A stretch of DNA of 64,000 nt from Polytrichum commune (Eukaryota; Streptophyta; Polytrichopsida; Polytrichales; Polytrichaceae): NCBI GenBank assembly GCA_950295325.1, contig OX485803.1, forward strand, positions 16,058,001-16,122,000, in the 5' to 3' direction. Shown here piece after piece: positions 18,051-64,000 of the stretch. Position numbers and translations under genes: made by a program. Each line of letters opens with the position of its first letter. The first letter of the stretch is position 1. The notes under the pieces were generated by a model, which worked only from the letters and a program-made list of their open reading frames with translations, was not told the DNA's origin and ran no database searches.

Positions 18051-19587
18051 TTCGGAATCGATATAAATTGATTATTTTATTTTATTTTATTTTTGAACAA
18101 GTTATGGTCACCAAGTTGCAAACTTGGTTAACAAACTCAATGTTTAAAATAAATTTAAAAAATCCAAAATCCAAAATCCAAAAATATATAAAAATAAATG
18201 AAAAGGCCCCCCACCCTGCCGGCTGCTGGCGGGGGGCAGGGAGGGCCGGGGAGGGTAGCACTGGGGGAGCCGCGTCACTGAGGCGCGGATTAGGGAGCCG
18301 AGCCTGTGGGCGGCTCCCACAATCTGAGCCACTCACTTGGTAGCATTCATCCAACGGTTGAAAAAATCCTAGGTGGCGGGCGCCCATAGTCGGGCACGGG
18401 TCCCAAACGCGGGCGGGCATGCAAGGTCCGGCACGGGTCCCGGAACGCACCTCCCCATTAACTGCGGTCCAAATTAATTGATGTCAAGTGAGGAGAGGGC
18501 ATTAGAATTAATTGATGTCAAGTGAGGAGAGTGCATTAGAATTTATTGATGTCAAGTGAGGAGAGGGTATTAGAATTAATTGACATTAATTAATTTGGAC
18601 CACAGTTAATGGGGAGCTGTGTTCCGGGACCCGTGCCGGACCTCGCATGCCCGCCTACGTTTGGGACCCGTGCCCGACCATGGGTGCCCGCCACCTAGGA
18701 TATTTTCAACCGTTGGATGAATGTTTAGAAGTGAACGGCTCAGATTGTGGGAGCTGGCCACAGGCCCGGCTCCCTAATCTGCGCCTCAGTGACGCGGCAG
18801 GGGAGGGGAGGGCGGCGGGGAGGCATCCGGCTCGGCTTGCCGCCGGCCGCGTGCCGTCACAGCCTGGAGTCCAGAGAGCTCCGGCTCTCGGCGCCGCTTC
18901 CTCTTCTCCTCTCCCTTGTTGATTCTTTTAATTTTTTTGTAAATTTTTGTGAATGAACTTGAACTTGAATCGGAATGAAGAGTGCTCTTCACAAGCTTAA
19001 TGATACAAATCCAAGCTTGTAAGTGGAAAAATAACAAGGAATTCCGTAGTCAATTCAATAATTCATCACCACAATTCACCTTGATGTGGCCTTCAAAAAA
19101 CAAGCATTCTTCATCTTGTTGTGCCGCAAATTCGCGGTGTTCTCTCTCCGGAACTTCGCAACTTCATCACTCTTTGTCCTCACGCCTTTCCTTGTGTGTT
19201 ATATATCAAGAATGAAAAAGAAAACATAAAAAATGAGGCATTCTTCCCAGGTGAGAAGGAAGAAAGTAGAACACTCATAATAGCTCTAAATCTCTTTTCA
19301 AATGCACACAATTAATCAAGCTATCTCTCACTCCACCACGGGAGAATCCAAGAGTGCAAGAGAGGGGAGAAGAACTCAAGATTTATTGTAAAAACATGCA
19401 ATCTTCACCTCACACAAGCTCTCTTCACACACTCACTTACAAGACTTGACTTGGCAAGAATGTCAAGCCAAGGAGGAGGCTCCTCACTTAGGAGCCTCAC
19501 TTTCCAAAACTAAGGTTCATCCATCCAACTCTAAATGAATAAAGCCCAACGGATAAGGTGCGGCCGCCGACGCCACATACCGTGACA
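18050..19587 (-). repeat. Decayed LTR related to the 61.5-62.95 kb LTR
   Basis: The right part (about 19,310-19,587) parallels the LTR at 62,600-62,951. Shared blocks include 'caagctatctctcactcca', 'gggagaatccaagagtgcaag', 'acacactcac', 'caagacttgactt' and a terminal CGTGACA. Both LTRs also have an AT-rich stretch leading into a GC-rich block. I see no internal coding region, so it may be a solo or truncated LTR. The left boundary is uncertain, and the foldback at 18,269-18,798 interrupts it. Confidence 0.55.
18269..18798. mobile_element. Foldback element with ~210-bp arms and 34-bp triplicate loop
   Basis: The left arm (18,269-18,478) and right arm (18,588-18,798) are long inverted repeats. 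Both arms carry the GCCGCGTCACTGAG end, CACGGGTCCC blocks and the inner CATTAACTG(C/T)GGTCCAAATTAATT block. The loop holds three tandem 34-bp units starting at 18,477, 18,511 and 18,545 (ATTGATGTCAAGTGAGGAGA core). No open frame of interest is present and no convincing TSD was found. A Mutator-like foldback is possible but unproven. Confidence 0.8.
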
Positions 19588-48500: not shown

Positions 48501-48934
48501 CATGTTCGATCGATCTCCAAAGAGAAGTGGACTCATCCGACAAAGGAGAAGATAGATAGATAGATAGATAGATATACATAGATATACATATATACATATA
48601 CAAGCAGTGAAGGAAGCGAGCGTGCGTGCAGGTGGTGGGCATGAAGGAGGAGGGAGTGGGGTCGGACTCGGGGTGCAAGAGCATTGAGTTGCGGGGGCTG
48701 GGGCGTGGGAGCCTGCAGTGGACGGAGATGGGCCGTGTTCCCAGCCACATGAACCACATGCGCTACAACTTCGACAGCTACAGTCGCGGCCACTTTGTGT
48801 TCCTGCTCTATGCCACCAAGCTTCTCGTGCACAACGTCGCCACCGGGGCCTGGAGCTTCGCGCCCCCCTGTCACCACGTCTGTGAGAACTTTCAGGAGTT
48901 TTGTTTCGAGCCCAGGTTGAACATGGTGGCGTGA
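45562..48934 (+). CDS. F-box protein, plant kelch/DUF-type C-terminus
   Basis: F-box proteins present substrates to SCF ubiquitin ligases. Three exons: 45,562-45,891; 46,369-47,040; 48,632-48,934. All joints are phase 0 GT/AG; 1,305 nt, 434 aa. The first ATG (45,562) is used; an in-frame ATG at 45,646 (MEASSQ) is a plausible alternative start. The F-box is WSELPNHLVYKVLALLPF followed by FVRLQWVCRRWSRLV (about residues 49-86). The C-terminal part has beta-propeller-like text (ASDKGLILYRV, ILVWDDYVFCRL, GVFAYGLTTRNWMRIPWP, LLYATKLLVHNVATGAWSF) without clear kelch glycine pairs. A Ser run from a CTT microsatellite (46,780-46,806) sits mid-protein. Intron 2 holds a MITE and a GATA microsatellite just before the last exon. 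The substrate is unknown. Exons 2 and 3 are more GC-rich than the flanking DNA. Confidence 0.85.
47279..47583. mobile_element. Tourist-like MITE in F-box intron 2
   Basis: The element is 47,282-47,580 (299 bp) between two TTA trinucleotides. The left end GGGTGGGGGTACACTAGGGTCC-like text is inverted at the right as GGACCCAAACCATAATGTAA then ATCCACCC. TTA duplication with G-rich ends fits PIF/Harbinger MITEs. No coding capacity. Confidence 0.75.
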
Positions 48935-48954
48935 AATAGGTAGATAGGTAGGTA

Positions 48955-50415
48955 GGCAGAATGTTCCTCAATCCAACATACATCTATTCAAGAAGGTTCA
49001 AAAATTCGGCCTTGGCGATACAACTTGACAGCTGCAATAATTACGGCGACTCTGTGTTTGTGTTGTATGCAACAAAGCTTCTCGTCCATAACGTCGTGAC
49101 CGGGGTGTGGATCGGAGCTTCGCATCTCCCTGTGTAACCACGTCTATGAGAACTTTCAGGAGTTTTGTTTCAAGCTGAGCTTCAACATGATGGCATGAAA
49201 TAGGTAGGTCGGTGGGCGGGCAGGTAGGTAGGTAGAATGCTCCTCGATCCAGCATACATCTATCCGAGAAGGTTCAAAAATTCGTCCTTGGCAATACAAC
49301 TTGACAGCTGCAATTACGGCGACTCTGTGTTTGTGTTGTGTGCAACAAAGCTTCTCGTCCATAACGTCGTGACCGGGGTGTGGAGCTTCGCATTTCCCCC
49401 TGTAACCACGTCTGTGAGAACTTTCAGGAGTTTTGTTTCGAGCCAAGGTTGAACATGGTGGCATGAAATAGGTAGGTAGGTGGGCAGGCAAAATGCTCCT
49501 CGATCCAATATACATCTATTCGAGAAGGTCCAAAAATTTGTCCATGACGATGTTTCGTGTGTCAACATTTCTATATGCACGAAAGGAGAAGCAACTAAGT
49601 TTTGTATCAGCGCAAAGTTGTTTATGAACTTAGTTGCCTTGGCGATATAACTTGACAGCTGCAATTACAGTGACTCCGTGTTTGTGTTGTATGCAACCGA
49701 GCTTCTCGTCCATAACGTCGCGACCGGAGCGTGGAGCTTCGCATCCCCCCATGTAACCACGTCTGTGAGAATTTTCAAGAGTTTTGTTTCAAGCCGAAGT
49801 TGAACATAGTGGCATGAAATAGGTAGGTAGGTAGGTAGGTAGGTAGGCACAATTTTCCTCAATCCAACATACATCTATTCAAGAAGGTCCAAAAATTTTG
49901 TCCATGGCGATATTTCATGTGCCAAGATTTCTATATGCATCGTTGTTCTTGGATAGGAGAAGCAATTCAGTTTTGTATTAGGAAAAGTTGTTTATGAACT
50001 TAGTTGCCTTGGCGATACAACTTGACAGCTCCAAATTACGGCGACTCCGTGATCGTGTTGTATGCAACAAAGCTTCCCGTCCATAACGTCGCAATTGGGG
50101 TGTGGAGCTTCACACCCCCGAGTAACCACAATCTTGAGATTTTTCAAGAGTTTTGTTTTAAAGCGAGTTTGAACGTGGATAGGTAGGTAGAATGGTGCTT
50201 AATCCAACATATACATTTATTTAAGAAAGTTTCAAAAATCGTCCATATCGACATTTCATTGTTCTATGCCAAAATTCTATATGAATCATTGCTCTTGGAC
50301 AAGAGATGTGCCCAATAGCAGGTATTTAGGTTTGTAAAGGATAAGTTTATCTATGAACTTAGTTGGCTCGACGATGCAACTTTGATAGCTACAATCACGG
50401 CAATTTCGTGTATTC
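48955..50415 (+). pseudogene. Array of five broken copies of the F-box last exon
   Basis: Copies start near 49,015, 49,290, 49,639, 50,010 and 50,369 and correspond to the parent exon from about 48,762 (Y-N-F-D-S-Y...TKLLVHNV..G.WSF...). Each of the first four ends in a GGTA/TAGG microsatellite and a 'ccaacatacatctattc' tail, as the parent does. The first four share a one-base deletion (AACTTGACAGC in place of AACTTCGACAGC) and stops, so none can code. The fifth is short but keeps the undeleted reading (AACTTTGATAGC) before decaying. Spacing grows from about 250 to 370 bp. Confidence 0.8.
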
Positions 50416-51001: not shown

Positions 51002-51360
51002 GGTTTTCATTAAATGAGAGTATGTTAAGCTGGGAAATCGACTCATTTAGGTTCAGTCGGCCTAAATGAGGACAATATTTTGTCAATTTAGGTTGAGTCG
51101 ACCTAAATGAGGACATTATGTTGTCAGTTTAGGTTGAGTCGACCTAAATGAGGACAATTATGTTAGTCAATTTAGATTGAGTCGACCTAAATGAGGACAA
51201 TATGTTAGTCAATTTAGGTTGAGTCGGCCTAAATGAGGACAATATGTTAGTCAATTTAGGTTGAATCGACCTAAATGAGGACAATATGTTGTCAATTTAG
51301 GTTGAGTCGACCTAAATGAGTCGATTTCCCAGCTGAACATACTCTCATTTTAATGGAAAC
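51002..51360. mobile_element. Foldback element with a 42-bp palindromic satellite inside
   Basis: The ends are inverted over about 45 bp (TTTCATTAAATGAGAGTATG, then AGCTGGGAAATCGACTC, and the complement at 51,310-51,360). Between them are seven tandem units of about 42 bp, centred near 51,047, 51,089, 51,130, 51,172, 51,214, 51,256 and 51,296. Each unit contains a small palindrome, TTTAGGT-x7-ACCTAAA, with GTCGAC at its heart in most copies. No open frame. No TSD was identified. Confidence 0.8.
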
Positions 51361-53474: not shown

Positions 53475-54175
53475 TATCAACCCATCAGCCCATCTTGAAT
53501 GTCAAGTTGCAAGTTTGACGTAGAAACAACGAATGCATGTAATGTGTTAATGGAAGCACCACCCAACATTACTAGGTATTGACTTGTGTCATATTCTAAG
53601 GGCAATTTACATTAGAGAAAGGTTTACAGTGTTAGATAGTCTCAAGCCTTTCTTCTCCCAACTTGATCGTCATGTTGGTATTACTTGTTATTGTACAAAG
53701 GTTACTACATTTTAACTCCACCTTCGTACACTTTTCTTAGACTTGTCGTATAAACTAAGATCGTTAAACACAACAAATCGAGTGTCGTCATCAACATCAA
53801 TTAGTAAAATAAAATAGCAAACTAATATGCTAAACAACCACCTCTTCAAGTGCCCCCACTAGCAGATAAGGAGCCCCTCCAATCGGCTAGGAACAAACAC
53901 ACTCAGCGGTAGAGTTGTTGAACATGATGAAGTTGTTGCTACATCTATACATATCCAATTGGTTAGTGGTAATCTAAGGAATTAAACTCATGATGGAGAA
54001 AGTAATCCAAGAACTGTAGGCTGGGTGCAATGTGAGCCCCATCCTTAATCGCCTTCAACAATTTATGTTGAATTCTTGGATAACTCTTTCAATGTGATTT
54101 TCAATCCCATAAACTTTCCAACCAACTAAATAATAACTTCACCACTAAAACATGTGGTAAACATCCACAAAATCT
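53475..54175. other. Spacer; 3' LTR of the gypsy element expected but not seen
   Basis: The 3' LTR of the - strand element should lie here, but no match to the LTR at 61,507-62,951 is visible. The - strand text near 54,050-54,180 is weakly like a gypsy RT but has stops, so it is not called. Confidence 0.5.
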
Positions 54176-55750
54176 TCAATCATGACCATTAACGGCCATG
54201 GAATGAGAGGCTTTCCGACAACGAGGACAAACCCAATTGCCAGAACGAAGAGTCAAAAGGGGAGGTGTCAAACATGCCATGTGCCATCCACATTGACATT
54301 GGTCGCACAATAACATTGTTGCAGCTCCTTTCTTCTCTCCACAAACATAACAAGGCAGACCCTGTGGTACAACCGCCAACTCGGGATGCACAGAGCAGTC
54401 GATGGGAAGGTGACATGGAGCACAATTCTTTGAATGCTCACGACATTCCCGTCCATCTTTGCCTTCAAGCAATAATATACCACTTGGCAAGACATCTTTT
54501 ACCCGCAAAATCGTGCGCCCAGCCTTGACATCCAATGTCGTAGGCGCCTCCCATTGCAAGTAAACATAATCCCCCTTGGAAAATCTACGAACCTGAGGTC
54601 GATAAGCTCCACTGCGGATCCGGGCATACCGTAATGTATCACGATGCTGAGCAATATTTAAGTTCTCTATGGCCATAGGCATAGCCTTTTGGAAGAACTT
54701 TGCTCGGTCATGAAGACATTGAGCCCAAACATCTGGATCATCCAAATTTACCACGGGAGCCAATTTCTCTTGCACCGAGCTAGGTAAAATTGGTTCCCGT
54801 CCATACAAGAGTTGGTATGGACTATAGGATGCCAAAGATGTTTGCCGGCTGAAACGATAACCCATTGCTATCCATGGTAACATCAAGTCCCAATCGCGAT
54901 GGTCGCCATGAAGCAATCCATACTTCCACAAACCACGCTTAACCGTCTGAACAACTCGTTCAGCTAAACCATCTACCTCAGGGTGATCTCTGGAAGTTGT
55001 CCGATGATCAATCAAAGCCTTGATACACAAAGCCTCGAAAGATCCAAGAAATTCTCTCCCTTAATCCGTCAACACCTCTGCAAGTGCTCCAAACCGTGCC
55101 AAAACTCTATCAAGAAATGCCATAGCCGCCAATTCTGAGGAATTTTGGGGAAGAGCCACGAGTTCAATCCACTTACTAAAATGCTCCACCATCACAAGCA
55201 CATACTTGGAACCACGTGGAGTGATAGTAAGCGGTCCGGCAAAATCCAAAGACCAACGATATCCCAAGCCCATAATAGGTAAAGGCTGAAGTTGAGGTGA
55301 CAAAGTATTAAAACTTGACCTGACCCGGTCACATACTTCACACCGAGAAACATAAGTGACAACCTGTTGATACATACCAGTCCACCAATATTGGTTGCGC
55401 AATATAGAGTGTGTCATTTGCACTCCAAAATGTCCAAGCTCCTCGTGCACTTGGCGCACTAAAGAAGCTCTTTGATCTGGCCTTGGAACGATGCGCCTTC
55501 TTCCGTTCGGCCACACACGAAACAACAAGCCGTTTGCCCAACGAAACCTTGTTATTCGATGGCTAACTCTATCTTGCTCCATAGCAGATAGTCCAAGAGG
55601 AAATATCCCTTGTTGAAGTTTGTGCAAGACCGCCTGGTCTTCCCACACATCACTAACAACAAGAGATTTATCAACCTCCTCATCTTGTTCTTCCACAAGG
55701 ATCTCAGCAGCCAATCCTGACATATTGTGAGATATGTGGCAGCATGCCAA
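54176..55750 (-). pseudogene. Integrase with C-terminal PHD finger
   Basis: The integrase inserts the element's cDNA. Zinc-binding part: H-x4-H in HEELGHFG and C-x2-C in CEVCD. Core: WSLDFAGP (first Asp), VLTD (second Asp) and the acidic residue in DGLAERVVQ (Glu). A single stop follows VLTD at about 55,058-55,060, where CAA would continue GREFLG. After the core, a basic region and a 'KGDYVYLQWEAP' beta segment are followed by a PHD finger (54,213-54,355) with C-x2-C, C-x2-C, H-x2-C and C-x2-C spacing (CYVC, CDQC, HMAC, CPRC). PHD fingers read histone H3 tails, often H3K4me3, so this may steer integration; chromoviruses place a chromodomain here. The specificity cannot be read from sequence. 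Confidence 0.85.
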
Positions 55751-55759
55751 TCCGGCACT

Positions 55760-57304
55760 GCCTCACGATCACAATCTCCATGCCACCTGGCTCCAGTTAA
55801 ATCCTCATCTGAAGGACTTGGATTGCGAGACAATCCGTCTGCATCTAAGTTGGCAATTCCTGCTCGGTGAACAACTTCAAAATCATATTCATGAAGTAAC
55901 AATGCCCACCTAGCAAGTTTTCCGGTGAGCTTATCTGATTCCATAAGCCATTTTAAAGGCGATGATCAGTCACCAAAGTAAATTTTTGCCCATACAAATA
56001 AGGTCGAAAATGTGCAATGGCCCAAACGGCCGCCAAGGCCTCGCCTTCATAAGAAGAATAATTAGATTCAGCACTATTATTGCTTCTAGATGTATAAGCC
56101 ACCACATATTTCTTTCCCTCTTCATCTTTCAGTGTCAATACCGCTCCCAATCCTACTGCACTCCAATCCGTGTGCAATTGAAAAGCTCTAGACACATCCG
56201 GGCGTCGAAGCACTGGCGCTGAACCGAGCTTCTGCTTCAATGTATCAAATGCTTGTTGTTGTTCCCGACTCCAAATCCATGGTTGGTCTTTCCCCGTGAG
56301 AATGGTAAGAGGTTTGGCAATCAAACTAAAGTTTTTGACAAACCTCCTATAATAATTTATCAATCCTAGAAATGCACGAAGCCGTGGTACAACACTAGAT
56401 GCGGGAATTTTGTGCAAAGCATCCACCTTTGCCTGTTGCACACCAAGACCGCCAGGAACAATCATGTGGCCTAAATAGGGCAATTGATCATGGAAAAACT
56501 TACATTTTCCATGATGTAAACGGAGTCCCCACCGTTGAAGTTGTTCAAATACCGCTTGCAAATGTCTCACATGATCATATGCACTATTACTAAAGATGAT
56601 AACATCATCAATGTAACATCTAGCAAACGGCAAACCAGTTAATAATTGGTCCATCACACCCTGAAATTCAGCTGGTGCATTCTTGAGACCAAATGGCAGA
56701 AATTTCCAATGATAAAGTTGATCCTTGCCATCTTTATCAATTCCCCAAAATGCGGTCTTCACCCGATCACCCAACAACAAAGGTAATTGGTGATAACCAG
56801 CCTCAAATCCATAGTACTGAAGATTCTAGAAAATCCCAGTGCATCAAACAACTTCTCCGGCATCGGCATTGGATATCGATCCAACTTGGTCTTGCGGTTG
56901 ACTGGACGATAATCACCACACATCCGTTTTTCCGTCTAGTTGCCAAAGATATCCTTCTTTGACGACATAACCGTAGCACAAGCATACTCTCCATTGAAGA
57001 GTTCAATCAATTCCGCTACCAATAACTCTTGACATAGAGTTTGAACACCCAACCTTTCAGAGGTACTAAGTCGGTACGGCCGTCTGAAAATAGGATGGTC
57101 GTCCTCAAGTTGAATACGAACATGTTTACCTTTATATCCTTCAAGATCATGAAGACTAAAGGCAAAACAATTACGGTAAGAGCTAATAAATGCCCGTACC
57201 TTTCGTGCTTCGGCACCAGTAAGCTTTGGCCCCACTTCAATTGGCCAATCGTCAAACTCCGTGGTTTCCTTCTTCATAGAAGGATTGCCACTTGGTGCCA
57301 ACAC
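55760..57304 (-). pseudogene. Reverse transcriptase and RNase H
   Basis: RT copies the genomic RNA into DNA and RNase H removes the RNA strand. The start (57,304-56,936) shows the RT lead-in (FRRPYRLS). The palm follows in another frame, with the FLPFGLKNAPAEFQ block and the catalytic YIDD (in ARCYIDDVIIFS). A second indel lies between 56,780 and 56,940, where DYRP-like text is read in a third frame. RNase H shows its acidic set: LHTDWS (Asp), YEGEALAA (Glu) and TDHRL (Asp), then IANLDADGLSR near 55,830. The chain is broken into three frames, so no enzyme can be made from this copy. Confidence 0.88.
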
Positions 57305-57649
57305 AGCCTGTGATTGCTAGTCCGTGGAGAGGGCAATACCTTTGCCCCCATCATCTGCACTTGAATCCAAATGCGTATCCTCTCCACTACAATCAGTTTG
57401 TGTAGCTAAATAGCTACCCACAGATGAAGTATCACCAAGAAATACAAGTGGAAACATTTTATGGGCCTCCAACTTCCCAAACTCTTGGGCCAAAGCCGAA
57501 AAAACACGTTGGGCTCGAAGCTCTTCCGCAACATGAAGTTTCAAAGGAAATAATCCCTCGCTGTCATTGACCTCAATGTGATCCTTGGATTGCGGCTCCA
57601 TTGCCCCCAGACCATTGTTCTCTGCCCTCAGAGTAAGCAATTGGTCATC

Positions 57650-58610
57650 CATACGTTGTTGAGCAGCAAGACAAATTCCAATTATCCACACAATGCTGTT
57701 AAGATCCATAGCTTGCCCCAATAGGAAACGTCTCTGACCTTCCTGAAGCCCGTGAGCAGCCGTGGTACCTGTAAGAAAACCCATGGCACGTTCCCGCTCA
57801 TCTGCCATAGGCTCCTCATAAGTTTGGAATTTTGAATCCCAAACCATGCCAGGTCCACGAGATCGAAATACAAAAGACTGTGGATATGTCACAAAAATAG
57901 GTAGTGCACCTCTCGGAATGCCCACCTTATTAATTAATGCAAATGGCAAGGTATCATCCTTGGTAACTGCCAAGGAAACACGATGATCATCTAAAATGTC
58001 ATCCACCTTGCGATCCATAAGGCGGGGAATGCGGGCAATCGCCGCTGAAAGCACCCAAGGTGATACCAAGTTGGTCCAAAATCAACGAGGCCGATGAGCA
58101 AAGGATCCCTAAGATGCAGCATCCAGAAATTTTGGAGTATCCAGAATTTGGTTAATGTACTCACCATCCTTCACCACTTTGTGCCGGGTATCACCCAATA
58201 ATGGTACATTTTCGAAAATATATTGGCGTAGTTGATTGGTGGTTAAACCACCATTGCGTCAATCGCATCAAATCAGCAAACAAACTAGACCTAGGATCAT
58301 CCAATCCCTGGCCAGTTCCTGCCCGCGAATGGCCTTGACAAGGCCATCCTGCAATAATCAAATCCACGTGGCCTAATCTTCTCAAATCCTCATCACTAAT
58401 CATAGTGACATCTTGAGGAAGTTGACCACAACATCCATGACTGGCAGAGGCTGACAATTATGCGGGGTATCTCAACAACAATTGTTGGATGTGGTGTCGG
58501 ACGGCTCTGTTGGCTACATACCCATTGTCCACATGAATATATCGCCAAACTATAATTCCAGCTTCCAACACTGCCGCCAAACCTGTGCCAATGCCTCCAA
58601 AGATCTCCAC
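57650..58610 (-). pseudogene. C5-cytosine DNA methyltransferase domain inside gypsy Pol
   Basis: DNA C5-methyltransferases transfer a methyl group from SAM to cytosine. Motifs in order on the - strand: I, VEIFGGIGTGLAA (about 58,572-58,610, SAM binding); IV, GWPCQGHSRAG with the catalytic Cys (about 58,338); VI, ENV (about 58,205-58,213, in the frame next to the one used before it); VIII, HRPRxFW (about 58,090-58,110); IX, ADERERAMGF; X, RRFLLGQAMDLNSIVW. A target-recognition stretch lies between VIII and IX. Motif I is in the same open frame as the protease C-terminus (58,458-59,213), so it is not a host gene nested nearby. One TAA (58,458-58,460) and one frameshift (58,210-58,250) break this copy. 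Motif IX/X wording (ERE-x-MGF, LG-x-x-x-D) is closer to the DNMT3/DRM group than to DNMT1/MET1 by eye. Confidence 0.88.
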
Positions 58611-58619
58611 AAGGACAAT

Positions 58620-59698
58620 ACCTTCAGGTGATGGTTGCCAACGAATGGGTTGAGCAAAAGAAAATGAGGATGAAGTTGGAGGTGCCTCTCCAAGCTCCAA
58701 ATCCGCTACAATGTGTCGACAATGGTCGGATAACTCCTTAGGAGTTCGCCATGGTGGAGGTGGATCCTTGAAATGTCGAGCAGGAATTTGAAAAGATGGT
58801 AAAAATTGTTGTTCTGCCGCATTACAAGTGTAGTCCATTGTTTCCTCCAATAAAACTGGAGCACAAGGTAAATCTGCAACTAAACCGCTGCAACCAAACA
58901 TTGCGTCCGCAACCATAGTCATAGCAATGGCTGCAAATGTGACGGGAATAAATACCTTCCTGCCATCTCCAGTGGACCATCCCGGTCTAATCCATGCCTC
59001 TTCCGTCCAATTATCCAAACCAAAGCCAAGTGGGTAAAGAGCTTGCTGACCAACAAGTATATCATAGTTGGTAGCATTAGTAACAACACACTTCATTGAC
59101 AAATGAATGTAAGTAGGCCCTGCCCCCACATGAAAAATCAAACATAGAGGTGCCTTGGTGTAACCTGTTGCACGTTCAGTGCCCCTACTGAAGTCACAAT
59201 AGTGAATGGACAAGGATCCAAGCTTGCTGGCGTCAATCCAAGACTATCAGCAAGTCCTTTGCCAATCATAACCGGTTGAGCACTGGAATCCATCATAACT
59301 CTCAGTGGTGTAGCACGGATAGTGGGCATATCCGTGCGTGAAACGACAAACAAAGATTTGTCGTTCATCAGCCGTACAACTCCAGGTCGCAAATTATGCC
59401 GTTCGCGAGCAGGCCTTGCAGAAATATCTGCAAGATATGCCGCTCCCGACGCATAATTCGAAAATGACGTATCCACTGCTGAAATTGATGCTGGAGGAAT
59501 ATCAGTTTGCTTACCAAAAGCAATGATCGCCGCATCCGCAAGACCCGCTCGCAAATTGGCTAAGTCCTCCACCTCCTCAGCCACAGGTACGTCAACAACA
59601 GCTTGGAATACTTGAAGGGATGGCAAATCCGCCTTACCTTCTAACATTCTCCCAGCTAAATGAAAAACTGCAGCAGGCTTCAAATCCGGAGCCATCAA
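58620..59698 (-). pseudogene. Retroviral-type aspartic protease region
   Basis: The protease frees Gag and Pol proteins. The active-site-like block is MDSSAQPVMIGKG (about 59,255-59,290), where the usual DTGA/DSGA reads DSSA. A TNATNYDILVGQQALYPLG block (about 59,030-59,080) matches the distal protease (I-L-G-x-x-x-L). A frameshift separates the halves (59,138-59,213 overlap). About 130 residues of unassigned sequence (58,640-59,020) connect it to the methyltransferase. The ATG overlaps the Gag stop as TGATG. Confidence 0.7.
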
Positions 59699-61409
59699 CT
59701 CCGAACCTGAGAAATTGGCATATGGAGAATTTTATATGCCAATGCCTGCGTAACATCCTTCGAGATGGAATCCTCATCTCTCAAAGGTACCGGGTTTTTA
59801 GCCCCAACAACAGTGGTGTCTACCAGTCCAAATGAGAGAGGTAAACGTGCTTGACCAATTTGATCCGCAGGTCCGGCATGGCGAGGATGTGGCACCTCAT
59901 TGCTACCACCACTCGTGGAAGCCACCGCATCTGCCAATGTTTGTGAGCGGGTAGAAGCCACCGCCACCACCTCTCCAGCTGCTCCAAACATATACATGTC
60001 CGAGCCCGAGGTGCCACCACCCATATGCGGCTCATAAATCTGAGCAAAAGACGCAGAAGATTTGAGCTTTTGCTCAAGTTTTGCTACCTTAGCCTCCAGA
60101 CTCTGCTCCCGTGGAGATCTGCCAGTGACATAACTGGCAGGCCGCATCGCAGGATGAAGTTGGAAACAATGATCCACATCGTGATTAGTGCCACCACAAT
60201 GGCTACATTTAAATTGTCTCTTCCTAGAATTTTCCCCCGCCTTTACTAGTTCTACCTTTTGTTTTAATTTTCCTAAAGGCTGGGTCTTCTTCCTCTTCGG
60301 ACAATTGGGATCATTCTTCAAATGACCAGATTCTCCACAACCCCAACAATGCAAAATCTTTTGCTCCTTGACGGGTTGAGCCTCAGCTAAACTACTAGTA
60401 GTTGTGACAATTCTTCTTGGTTTCGGACTCTCTGTCATCCAAAATACCATATCCGTGGCATCATGTTGGCAAAGAGCCCGATCACATCTCTCAACCACAG
60501 CAAACGTTTGTGCAAGCGTAGCTCGGCCCTCGTAGTCGAGGATAATCCGAGGTGATGCCAACTCAAGTAGCCGCTTGTCAATCTTAGACAAAAAGATTTT
60601 AACAAGCTGACTCTCAGCAAAAATACCTCCCGACTCCACAGCAAATCGCGCGAGTCGCGTATACATGGTCCGTAGAGTATCATCCTTCTCTCGGCGGAAA
60701 TCCTGGATGCGCTGCATCTGGTCTCGCCGAAACCCACCATACTCCACTTCCAAATGTGCGACAAATTCAGTAAGGGGATTAAACGGAGGTGGTGGACCAA
60801 CAGCCGTCAATGCTGCCTGTGTAGCACGTGCCATCCGTGAAAGGATAGCCATGCTACTGCCAGCACTATTGGCCCAAGTGCCAGTTCTTTGTCCTTAGAC
60901 TCCTCCGGCGATTCCTCCTCCTTTAAGGTGGGTGGAGCTAAGGTAGCAACCGCCCCATCTTTAAGGGCTGAAATAAGCTCAACCCGGGCCTCCCAATACT
61001 GCTCCACCTCCCGAAGGTGTCGCTGATGACCCTCTGTCCAGCGTTCGTAAGTTTGGAGTGCCTCATACTCCAAATGCTGAGGCAGAAGTTCAAAGGCATA
61101 CCAATCATTGAAATTGGAAGACCTTTGGCGTTTCTCCTTAATCCAGGTACGAAACCGGAGTTTCCAATCGGGCAAGGAAATGCCCCCAGCTCGACCTGAA
61201 AACCGATCACGCACTGAATTGTGGCGATCGTCCTCCATTTCGTCGAACGTGCCGACACTCCAAATCCGAAGCCTACTAGTAGTGTCCAACGCCGAAATAG
61301 GCTCAAAAGCCTCGTTGGTATCTACCTCTGGCTCAAGATTTGTGGTATGCACGTCCTCCAAGTAATCTGGTGATGAAGATCGATAATATCGGCTCCTAGT
61401 TTGCACCAT
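59695..61409 (-). pseudogene. Gag with two zinc knuckles
   Basis: Gag forms the particle that packages the RNA. The ATG (61,409) opens MVQTRSRYY, with a helical Gag core (FVAHLEVEYGG, FRREKDDTLRTMYTRLARF, about 60,640-60,780). Two zinc knuckles follow: CWGCGESGH...C (about 60,300-60,348, wider than standard at its end) and CSHCGGTNHDVDHC (about 60,165-60,210, standard CCHC). A coiled-coil-like ARVAKLEQKL stretch follows. One frameshift lies at 60,807-60,852, so this Gag is broken too. Confidence 0.85.
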
Positions 61410-61506: not shown

Positions 61507-62951
61507 TGTTTATTTAGGCCTCCAGAACTCCAAAATTGTGCAAAGGTTTGAGATTGGTAATTAAAATTAAAAAATCAGCGTTGAAAATGTTAATTTCCAA
61601 GGTGATTATGGAATCCAATCAACAAACTAATTGCACCAATGGACTCCTAGGAAGATTTCACACAAATTAGGCTCAAATTTCACTCCGTTCGAAGTTAATT
61701 TGCTCCCAAAAACAAAAATCAGCGTTGAAATTAATAATTTCAGCAATGATTTTGAATTCCAATCAACAATCCAATTACACCATTGGATTCCTTGGCAAAT
61801 TTCACACAAGATAGGCTCAAATTTCACTCCAATCGGAGCTAGTATGCCCCCAAATTTGAACCTCAAAGTTTGTGAGAATTGGATGCCAAGTTTGAAAGGT
61901 GAAAGTAAAAATGTGAAAAAAATAAAATAAAAATATTTGTTTTAACTAAACAAAACTAAAACTAAAACTAAAACAAAATAAATATAAATAAATAAATAAA
62001 TAAAAAGGGTAAGGGCTTACCTTACCTGCCTGCCAGGGCCTGGCTGGCGCCCGCCCGCCCGTGGGGCCCGCCCGACGCCCGCCCGCCCCCAGCCCCGGCC
62101 CGGCCTGCGCCACCCGCCCCCGGTCCTCCCAGAATTGGAGCTCCAGGAGCTCCAAGAGGGTCCGGTGAGCTCCGGATCCGTCCAGAGCTCAACCAAAATT
62201 AAAAACAAATTGGATTTTAATTTTGGTTTGTGTTTGTGTTTGAATTAAACTTTGCTTTCACAATTTGCAAGCAAGAAAATGTGACTTGAGAATCTTGAGA
62301 CTAAATGGAATCTCAAGATTCAACCATCAACAATTGAAGAAAATACAAAGAGACAACAAAAGAAAAATGGGAAGATTTCTCTCAAAATCTTCTTGAGGGT
62401 TGCAAGAAATGACAAACTAAGCTTTCAAACACTTGTATCACTCATTTGCTCTCATTACTGGGCCATTCTAGCTCAGAAATACAACCAAAAATGAAAAATT
62501 TGAGCCATTGTTGTCAAGTATGAGGGTTTCTCTCTCCAAGCTTAAGAAACTAAAATGTCTTCTTACAAAGCTTAAGAAACTCTGAAATTCACACACAAGA
62601 GTCAAGCTATCTCTCACTCCACGAAGGGAGAATCCAAGAGTGCAAGTGGTGGAGAAAGAATGCAAAGGCTTTACTCATAATCTACTACACCATAGCCATG
62701 AGAAAGCAACAACAAGCTCTCTCTCTCTCAAAACACACTCACAAGACTTGACTTGACAACAATGGCAAGTCAAGAGGCCTTCCTCTCCATACAACCCCAA
62801 TCTTATGTGGAGGTCATCCATGGAGTGGATGAACAACTAACTAGGACTCCCAATGGAGTCCATTACTCATCCAAACACACATGGACTCCTAATGGAGTCC
62901 ATTTACTCCTAAATTGACGTGACTTAGCCCCCGATGTCACCTCACGTGACA
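61507..62951 (-). repeat. 5' LTR of the gypsy element
   Basis: Inferred as the LTR from its place before Gag and its TG...CA ends: the + strand starts TGTTTATTTAGG and ends CACGTGACA, so the element strand starts TGTCACGTG. It is about 1,445 bp with two tandem ~155-bp units near Gag (61,565-61,860) and a very GC-rich block (62,020-62,170). A TGG-containing primer-binding-like site (about 61,490-61,504) follows on the element strand; the matching tRNA was not identified. Similarity to 18,050-19,587 supports it. Without the second LTR the exact boundaries are provisional. Confidence 0.6.
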
Positions 62952-64000
62952 GACTCTTAAATCATTTGCCTTTGCGAAAATTAAATCAAATTCATCTCAT
63001 CAGGATGTGTGTCCAAAGAAATCTAATTCAAGCTGCATTGAAGGTGTTGAGTATGTGAAAATGTACCAGTTTTTATGAAGGTGAAGCGTCTCTCTCTCAT
63101 TATTACCTTTAAACTATATAAATAGTCAAGTGTGAAACTCTTAACAAATTGATTAGCCTCCTACAAAGTTTGGAATACTTAGTAGAATCTACACCTATGT
63201 CAGACAATATATTGTACTTAACCATGGGTTAATTAACCATAATTAAGGAAGTCATCATGCTCCACAATTTAGGGTTTCCGTGACCTTAAGGTACCCACTA
63301 CACCTTACTAAGCAAATACTTAAAGTGTAAACACGTCCATATGAAGACTCCTTTAAGTGTTGGGGGGGAGATAATACTTGGCTTAGTTTATTCATTGTGA
63401 CTTGGTAGATGCTAAGTGTGAAAGTGCATGGCATTTGGTGTACAAGAGGTTCTTACTATTCAATAAAGTTACACAATATATATGGCAAAAGAACATGTTT
63501 CTATGCCCAATTTTTTTTATTGAGTGTAAAGGTTTGCAACCTCTCAATAAACTAGATAGGTAAGATAAATGTGGTATATGAATTACTACTAAGCCTAATT
63601 GAAAACATATGACACACACCTTTCTAAAACATAATTGTATGTTTCGGTTGGTACAGGTGCAAGTGAGGCTAGCCCTTCACATTTGAACACCAGCAATAAT
63701 GCATTGCTCATGTTTGAATGGTCTTTTACTCTTGAAATATTACACTACTCAAAGTTATTATGTTGATGTGACTGGCACTTTGATGTATACACAAATTCCC
63801 AAATTGTACTTGAGGCATTGAGAATACTTTCTAGCAAATTAGGTACGTAAGCCTACATATCACATCATTGCTTTATTACTTGGTTGTAACAATATCATGT
63901 AATTATTGACCAAAATGCACGCATATGTTGGACCATCTTTGGAACTTAGTTGCCATAAGTGATGGATATTTGATACCAAGGCTTGTATCATAACATCACA
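62952..64000. other. Intergenic, no gene recognised
   Basis: AT-rich DNA with no recognisable frame or repeat. The window ends here. Confidence 0.5.

Follow-up and report, generated by a model that had tools for sequence, protein, structure and literature searches.

Background

Hosts silence transposons by cytosine methylation, and a transposon that itself writes this mark is therefore a paradox. Retrotransposons of the PAT, Ngaro and DIRS types have split direct repeats (A-body-B-A-B), use a tyrosine recombinase and leave no target-site duplication (TSD), and the chromoviruses carry a chromodomain, i.e. a domain of histone-reader type, fused to the C-terminus of the integrase. DNMT3 retroelements have been reported in Klebsormidium and in dinoflagellates (de Mendoza et al. 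2018, PMC5890265, in the sections available to us), a precedent that a first, sequence-only reading of the DNA studied here had named correctly. In the same sections, isolated domains of the dinoflagellate SymbioDIRS-Dnmt3 elements are stated to methylate CG in yeast; the Klebsormidium nitens retroelement methyltransferase (MTase) gave no methylation in yeast, a result that the authors deem inconclusive, and they regard the gypsy case as acquired within the lineage of K. nitens.

Here we describe a Ty3/gypsy element with a putative DNMT3-class MTase in a window of the Polytrichum commune genome (the whole stretch of DNA analysed, 64,000 nucleotides, G000:C1:16058001-16122000), together with its copies in the same genome and its relatives elsewhere.

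The element in the window

The element occupies window positions 62951-53744 on the minus strand, as do all its features given below, and lies between two 4-bp target duplications, AGTC, at 62952-62955 on its 5' side and, identical, at 53740-53743 on its 3' side. It starts with a repeat, A (A1; 432 nt, 62520-62951, beginning TGTCACGTG), with boundaries taken from other copies; among six long copies of subfamily 1, five have an A1 of 432-435 nt and the sixth has one of 561 nt. The internal region begins directly after A1 with ACTTGACAACAATGG (62500-62519), where we place a putative primer binding site by analogy with its position in LTR elements. A direct repeat of 141-144 nt (80-83% identical) is present at 61570-61854, in the 5' region upstream of gag; elsewhere, the window has tandem arrays of 268-nt and 42-nt units (48764-49490 and 51045-51320) and an inverted pair of 219 nt (18269-18798).

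The gag region (60439-61409, in two frames here) and the zinc knuckle region (CCHC; 60094-60423) were located using tblastn with another copy, the former at 94-95% identity; the gag region of the window copy gave no Pfam gag match, and in a subfamily-2 copy the zinc knuckle matched PF00098 with E=0.0038, short of the curated cut-off. The aspartic protease (PR; 59016-59404) is frameshifted and has D-S-S in place of D-S-G. It matches PF13975 (E=0.011) and PF13650 (E=0.018; 0.00055 in another copy), and all protease matches are weak and under the curated cut-offs.

Downstream of the protease (59404-59016) and upstream of the reverse transcriptase (RT; 56989-56424) is the MTase (57662-58625, motifs I to X), as identified by Pfam, tblastn and structure-sequence matches. 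The sequence-only reading had placed a C5-methyltransferase between these two domains, at 57650-58610, with motifs I, IV, VI, VIII, IX and X in linear order and motif I in the same open frame as the end of the protease, and had named a profile search among its checks. Each of these points was borne out: PF00145 matches the motif-IV frame 58457-58191 (minus strand) with E=1.4e-10 (41.6 bits; cut-off 22), another copy's MTase domain used as a tblastn query recovers the full domain at 58625-57662 (90-94% identity, two frames), the motifs follow in that order, and the shared frame is 58458-59243. The same reading was right to combine gypsy and MTase. Four features described below lie outside it: a PHD finger, an in-frame UAG, split repeats and the broken state of this copy.

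The border between the two open reading frames (ORF1/ORF2) is a UAG stop followed by CAAUCA (57311-57319, the stop being 57319-57317). It is followed by RT (56424-56989; PF00078, 2.9e-23; one stop and a frameshift), RNase H (RH; 55879-56279; PF17919, 1e-34; frameshifted), a DDE integrase (INT) with an H2C2 zinc domain (54950-55504; PF17921, 1.8e-17; PF00665, 1.4e-7, the latter slightly under its cut-off; one stop) and, at the C-terminus of the integrase frame, a PHD finger (54212-54364; PF00628, 3e-9; PDB PHD fingers from 4.2e-12). The 3' end consists of a polypurine-tract-like TAGTGGGGGCA (53851-53861), with similar tracts in other copies, immediately upstream of repeat B (B1; 107 nt, 53744-53850, ending ACGACA), and the window copy is a short form with no A2-B2 behind B1. 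The MTase retains its catalytic PC; it is interrupted by three stop codons and, near 58200, by a frameshift, so this copy is unable to make the enzyme. With the further damage in gag, protease, RT, RNase H and integrase, the window copy is dead.

Copies in the genome and the UAG stop

A search of the genome (407.8 Mb in 64 contigs, seven of which account for 406 Mb) with PF00145 gave 353 candidates, of which 123 were scored; all 123 were matches and 18 of these lie in intact open frames of 1356-1386 aa. Ten of the copies with the longest frames were fetched with their surroundings for ORF analysis, and the MTase is present in all ten, in one open frame (ORF1, gag-PR-MTase) that ends before RT and is 1386 aa long in seven copies and 1366-1372 aa in the three that represent a second subfamily. 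ORF2 follows in the frame of ORF1 after one stop; seven of the ten copies have it whole (1045-1047 aa), and in the other three it is broken. Using hmmscan, two ORF1s gave DNA_methylase matches (1.2e-11 and 1.3e-11) and, ahead of the MTase in the same frame in both, protease matches under the curated cut-off, while two complete ORF2s both contained RT, RNase H, H2C2, rve and PHD. The family is real, old and recently active.

The stop that separates MTase from RT is UAG in 10/10 fetched copies of the two subfamilies; it is followed by CAAUCA in the seven subfamily-1 copies and by CAAUUA in the three subfamily-2 copies, and the flanking codons vary. UAG-CAR-YYA is the readthrough context of tobacco mosaic virus, and on this resemblance the UAG is predicted to be leaky. 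Among 28 ORF1-type proteins without RT, 23 (host, environmental and Marchantia) end 78-146 residues past the MTase, one (P0169) ends 172 residues past it and the remaining four are truncated. In Marchantia, three gene models (P0022, P0023 and P0026) extend from the MTase into RT, as does the Sphagnum model, by way of an intron, of joined models or of a genuine fusion, so the UAG split is not present in every bryophyte model, and in the Klebsormidium, Closterium and P0029-like proteins the MTase likewise continues into RT in a single frame.

An old, more diverged MTase-bearing copy (L053, G000:C4:43284000-43293900) suggests a long residence of the family in this genome. In one copy the 3' flank (L010:1417-3006) has a Transposase_21 frame (tnp2, CACTA-type; 1.9e-62), i.e. 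this insertion is beside another transposon. The plastid contig (G000:C8, 146,561 bp; L074) has an intact, AT-rich matK frame (20-22% GC). Further matK matches, of which two contain stops, lie on C1, C2, C3 and C5 and are probably nuclear plastid DNA.

The methyltransferase and the PHD finger

Searching the PDB with a single MTase sequence gave DNMT3A as the top match (1.2e-8), then DNMT3B/3C, HaeIII (7.7e-6), HhaI (3.7e-4) and 4onj (1.5e-3), which we take to be a DRM-type methyltransferase. With a profile of eight family members the matches were DNMT3A (1.4e-22), DNMT3B (6.7e-20), 4onj (7.9e-13), DRM2 (7.7e-10), HhaI (1.3e-8) and tRNA enzymes of DNMT2 type (from 3e-6), and none of the 57 profile matches within E 0.01 carried a DNMT1 or CMT name. 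Because DNMT3 matches far better than HhaI or HaeIII, a bacterial origin is not favoured on sequence grounds, with thin sampling of the references.

In an alignment restricted to unbroken MTase domains of at least about 295 aa (59 domains, other MTase-bearing proteins being left out), the most conserved positions include the catalytic Cys of motif IV (97%), the Glu and Asn of motif VI (98/97%), the Arg residues of motif VIII (95/98%) and the Gly of the cofactor motif I; the Pro before the motif-IV Cys is replaced by Glu in 4 of the twelve sequences displayed. AlphaFold2 predicts a full MTase fold for a relative with 75% identity (pLDDT 88.6, pTM 0.89), and the fold of the family enzyme is predicted from sequence together with this model confidence. 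The MTase is of DNMT3 class with its catalytic residues kept, and is a putative DNA writer. An IMG/VR scan with the MTase found four stretches that fit the pattern and no relatives. Among three unusual MTase matches fetched from the genome, a single one is not a retroelement (L051, G000:C2:4699000-4708900): it is a separate MTase gene (FSGIGGAEVAL...) with rearranged motif order, presumably a host DRM-like de novo methyltransferase gene, as named from its motifs.

Between subfamilies 1 and 2, dN/dS was 0.11-0.12 for the MTase (dS 2.4, near saturation), 0.036 for RT, 0.027 for INT, 0.11 for PHD and 0.17 for PR, and 0.60-0.62 for the tail after the MTase; for gag and the linker dS was saturated in most pairs. 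The MTase has accordingly been under purifying selection over longer times, weaker than that on RT and integrase. In a comparison of C5_29747803 with the related copy L007 the MTase ratio was 0.18 (dN 0.030, dS 0.165) and that of PR 0.24, with 0.47 for the PR-MTase linker (dS 0.067) and 1.85 for the tail (dS 0.015), the last two resting on few changes. Within subfamily 1 (seven copies) the values were 0.51 (MTase), 0.49 (linker), 0.21 (gag) and 0.31 (PR), and no MTase constraint is visible among these young copies. The observed/expected CG ratio was 0.67-0.76 in element bodies, 0.65 in the window copy, 0.54 in the rest of the window and 0.36-0.88 in single flanks. The element bodies have no CG-depletion scar of heavy CG methylation, of which young copies would show little.

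The PHD finger has the pattern CxxC...CDQCQRGWHMACLTPPL...WVCPRC and matches the fingers of PHF12, CHD4, Lid/KDM5, PHF21A, UHRF1 and ATXR5. Several of these fingers read unmodified H3K4, and so does the ADD domain of animal DNMT3. By resemblance, the PHD finger of the element may prefer unmethylated H3K4, and the element may divide between two polyproteins a writer-reader pair that a single chain carries in DNMT3A.

Relatives and domain orders

A search with the host MTase, in which the 8000 candidates sharing most words were scored, gave 35 proteins at E 1e-3, including 13 Marchantia polymorpha rows (42-49%) and one Sphagnum fallax row (34%, MTase in pieces). The sequence-only reading had raised the prospect of a land-plant extension of the known cases, and the named Marchantia and Sphagnum relatives support land-plant membership. 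A second search, with the MTase of a divergent member, gave 60 proteins at E 0.01, among them K. nitens KFL_009030040 (P0181; a divergent family member, its MTase 44% identical over 72% of the query), four Closterium rows and Cymbomonas tetramitiformis. A third, with integrase-PHD, gave 395 proteins, and PF00628 was present in 118 of the 120 matches listed, Haematococcus lacustris and Volvox reticuliferus among them; since a PHD finger was part of the query, PHD-bearing proteins were favoured. Most of the relatives found are environmental contigs.

These proteins show two arrangements: order I, with the MTase between PR and RT, and order II, with the MTase before the integrase. The Marchantia, Sphagnum, Closterium and Klebsormidium relatives have the domain order of the window element, and P0181 and Closterium are of order I (PR-MTase-RT-RH-INT) where frame length allows. 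A domain scan of 157 proteins found RT-RH-MTase-INT-PHD in one frame in 19, the others being partial; Volvox P0085, which belongs to the order-II clade, has MTase-INT-PHD with no RT in its frame. A protein of the RT-RH-MTase-INT-PHD type (P0187) also came from a bin labelled Minisyncoccia bacterium, most likely as algal contamination. In the divergent-member search, the PHD finger is present in all but P0179 of 23 order-II proteins with integrase. Of 14 single-frame order-I proteins with integrase, some of them partial, two (P0048 and P0166) have the finger, and it is absent from all Closterium rows.

In a midpoint-rooted tree of 123 integrase domains, a clade of 43 holds the host ORF2s and all four single-frame order-I proteins with no order-II protein, and the other clade, of 80, has 45/45 order-II proteins, the order-II label here including MTase-INT proteins without RT in frame. 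For the 59 proteins with one whole MTase and one whole RT, which excludes e.g. the Marchantia models, 17 of order I and 42 of order II fall apart from each other in the MTase tree. In the RT tree of the same 59 this split recurs, except that P0196 (order II) is placed beside order I and the order-I node has a low support of 0.108. MTase and RT distances are correlated (r 0.70, equalled in 0/2000 shuffles; 0.855 within order I and 0.65 within order II). The two trees largely agree and the MTase has been co-inherited with RT. P0181 is on the order-I side in both trees, where deep nodes are weak.

A 38-taxon ML tree set 34 retroelement MTases apart from DNMT3A/B, HhaI and HaeIII (93.5/94), with order II as a clade (99.5/98) and weak deep order-I nodes; an earlier quick tree had DNMT3A inside the order-I proteins with weak support. 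The DNMT3 references in the trees were vertebrate only and entered by hand.

Split repeats and integration

Repeat ends were studied in 31 copies, i.e. 20 long-frame and 10 mixed copies from the 123, hand-picked and non-random, plus the window. The structure is A-body-B-GC-A-B (long form) in 25 and A-body-B (short form) in six (the window, C6_31140883, C3_13098650, L031/32, L056/57 and L058/59, the last classed from its 3' structure alone). An exact 4-bp TSD surrounds TGTC...GACA in 23/31 (by batch 10/10, window 1/1, 8/10 and 4/10); for the other eight, the start of A was not found in six, one TSD agrees in three of four letters and L041/42 has none. A TSD match of L070/L071 was left out since the place does not begin TGTCACG. 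Between B and A, GACAGCTGTC is present in 25/25 long copies, and a 15-mer across the B-A junction has 143 exact occurrences genome-wide as compared to one for a control.

Among eight long copies compared, A1 equals A2 in three and B1 equals B2 in five while the copies differ from one another, which suggests that the repeats are renewed with every cycle and that some insertions are recent. Of 24 visible A2|B2 joints, 21 are exact; in the other three (L030, L040 and L063) the A side is shortened and B starts from its normal first base, and A1 is whole in both checkable copies with a shortened A2 side. This pattern fits end-joining of a linear B-GC-A...B-GC-A cDNA, and later deletions at the joint may also explain it. 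Cuts 3' of both CA in GACA-GC-TGTC would give the usual 2-nt overhang established for retroviral integrase. The split repeats fit a DDE integrase that cuts GACA-GC-TGTC inside the LTR, probably on a circle; the short forms could alternatively come from B1 x B2 recombination after insertion.

Discussion

Our data provide direct support for the anatomy, the copy number, the intact frames, the selection between subfamilies, the co-inheritance of MTase and RT, the split repeats and the 4-bp duplications. To account for these we propose, with somewhat more confidence than doubt, that the family belongs to the gypsy lineage of LTR retrotransposons and has captured a DNMT3 catalytic domain of host type, together with a PHD reader at the integrase end, and that it would operate as follows. 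Ribosomes would mostly halt at the UAG and make abundant Gag-PR-MTase, so that the MTase would enter the particle in amounts similar to those of Gag, and occasional readthrough would give RT-RH-IN-PHD. The cDNA made by RT would have an LTR of the structure B-GC-A, judged by where the primer site (behind A1) and the purine tract (ahead of B1) lie, and the particle MTase would place de novo methylation, probably at CG, on the fresh cDNA, such that the latter reaches the nucleus already bearing the host's "self/silent" mark. The cDNA ends would be joined into a circle and the integrase would cut 3' of each CA in GACA-GC-TGTC within one LTR, generating 2-nt overhangs and inserting with a 4-bp stagger; a two-LTR circle would then yield A-body-B-GC-A-B and a one-LTR circle A-body-B. 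Finally, the PHD finger may direct the integrase to chromatin that has H3K4 unmethylated, in which a copy methylated beforehand would be least harmful and survive.

The rival that fares best, which we regard as rather unlikely, is that the MTase serves to silence newly made copies of the element, as a self-restraint that lessens host damage, instead of protecting or disguising the cDNA. Purifying selection alone cannot separate protection from restraint, host-friendly restraint is among the options given by de Mendoza et al. (PMC5890265, in the sections available), and the very recent insertions (A1=A2 in 3/8 long copies), counted on this side, mean that the family was still active a short time ago. 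However, selection on single copies would favour losing a self-silencer, and the domain has been kept in the host, Marchantia, Closterium and Klebsormidium.

That there is no circle at all is a weaker candidate still: A-B would be an ordinary LTR, the linear TGTC...GACA ends would be used, the missing 5' B and extra 3' B would be an inherited oddity and the short forms B1 x B2 deletions. TG...CA ends with 4-bp duplications are typical of normal integrase products, and the TSD is kept in all five checkable short forms (of 6/31), as expected of recombinants. Against this, the 5' end is A without B in 23 exact-TSD copies from two diverged subfamilies, and the purine tract stands before B1 rather than A2. 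Moreover, B1=B2 and A1=A2 occur within copies that differ mutually, as if both repeats were remade in each cycle, the A2|B2 joint varies on the A side only with A1 whole in the two copies checked, and K. nitens is reported to share this repeat plan (PMC5890265, legend of Fig. 4).

We judge it very unlikely that the MTase persists because of a role other than catalysis (binding of RNA or DNA, or assembly of the particle) or because it methylates RNA. The K. nitens domain was inactive in yeast, inconclusively so according to its authors (PMC5890265, in the sections available), and some relatives have Glu for the motif-IV Pro, but the catalytic Cys, the motif VI Glu/Asn, the motif VIII Arg and the motif I Gly are highly conserved over the 59 domains. 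Nested insertion by chance, the alternative that the sequence-only reading had set against a family-wide domain, would mean that the MTase is an inserted host or bacterial gene; it has a probability close to nil and is ruled out, because the MTase matches recur genome-wide (18/123 in long open frames, one frame ending before RT in 10/10 fetched and behind a protease match in 2/2 scanned), the domain order is shared with K. nitens, Closterium and Marchantia, and the MTase distances track those of RT.

Beyond the captured writer and reader proposed above, the relatives suggest an old family across green algae and bryophytes, rather than an acquisition in the K. nitens lineage. More tentatively, and as a view that we would not yet lean on, there may be one ancient writer-reader gypsy clade (DNMT3 writer and PHD reader) that predates the split of green algae and land plants, in which the writer moved once between the PR-RT and the RNase H-integrase positions, the DDE integrase cuts a palindrome at the circle junction as a third route of integration, and the bryophyte-type members make the writer as a Gag-level particle protein via a leaky UAG. 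Circle-junction integration by a DDE integrase was once proposed for retroviruses and later abandoned; the split-LTR anatomy makes it testable here. The UAG likewise offers a direct test of the amount of writer relative to RT, and with the genetic model Marchantia polymorpha among the carriers the function is open to genetic test. The family is thus suited to studying why a parasite of the genome would write the silencing mark of its host.

Comparison with known systems

The titles and abstract openings returned by literature searches on this theme contained no report of a DNMT-bearing gypsy element in bryophytes or chlorophytes, or of a similar PHD gypsy; supplements and figures outside that scope may name a bryophyte member. 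Like animal DNMT3A/B, which are its best solved-structure matches, the MTase has a motif VIII of the form AHRxR..W.NL and a motif IX/X of the form E.ER..GF; unlike them, it has no ADD or PWWP among its Pfam matches and is fused in a Gag polyprotein. It differs from the DRM methyltransferases in its linear, not rearranged, motif order. As in the chromoviruses a reader is located at the C-terminus of the integrase, but in the two ORF2s scanned it is a PHD finger only, with no chromodomain. Split direct repeats are shared with PAT, Ngaro and DIRS, in contrast to which the family has a DDE (rve) integrase and a target duplication, with no tyrosine recombinase among its Pfam matches. SymbioDIRS-Dnmt3 of dinoflagellates, as described in the available sections of PMC5890265, is similar in having a DNMT3 domain in a retrotransposon polyprotein and split repeats, and differs by its tyrosine recombinase, where we find a DDE integrase and a 4-bp TSD.

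The closest known element is KnitGypsy-Dnmt3 of Klebsormidium nitens (de Mendoza et al. 2018, PMC5890265), which, in the same sections, has a gypsy pol, a DNMT3-class domain, DIRS-like repeats and purifying selection. P0181 (KFL_009030040), which has the PR-MTase-RT-RH-INT order of the window family, is probably one of the KnitGypsy-Dnmt3 copies of that report. The MTase of the Polytrichum family is, unlike that of KnitGypsy-Dnmt3, encoded in the gag-PR frame before a leaky-type UAG and not in one Pol frame. The family also has a PHD finger at the integrase end, a feature for which the partial P0181 is not comparable; the word PHD is absent from the main text of PMC5890265, and an integration mechanism for the DIRS-like gypsy repeats was not found in the available sections. 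Compared with KnitGypsy-Dnmt3, new here are the land-plant relatives, the PHD finger, the predicted leaky UAG, the second domain order and the integration anatomy, i.e. the TSD, the palindrome and the two integration forms.
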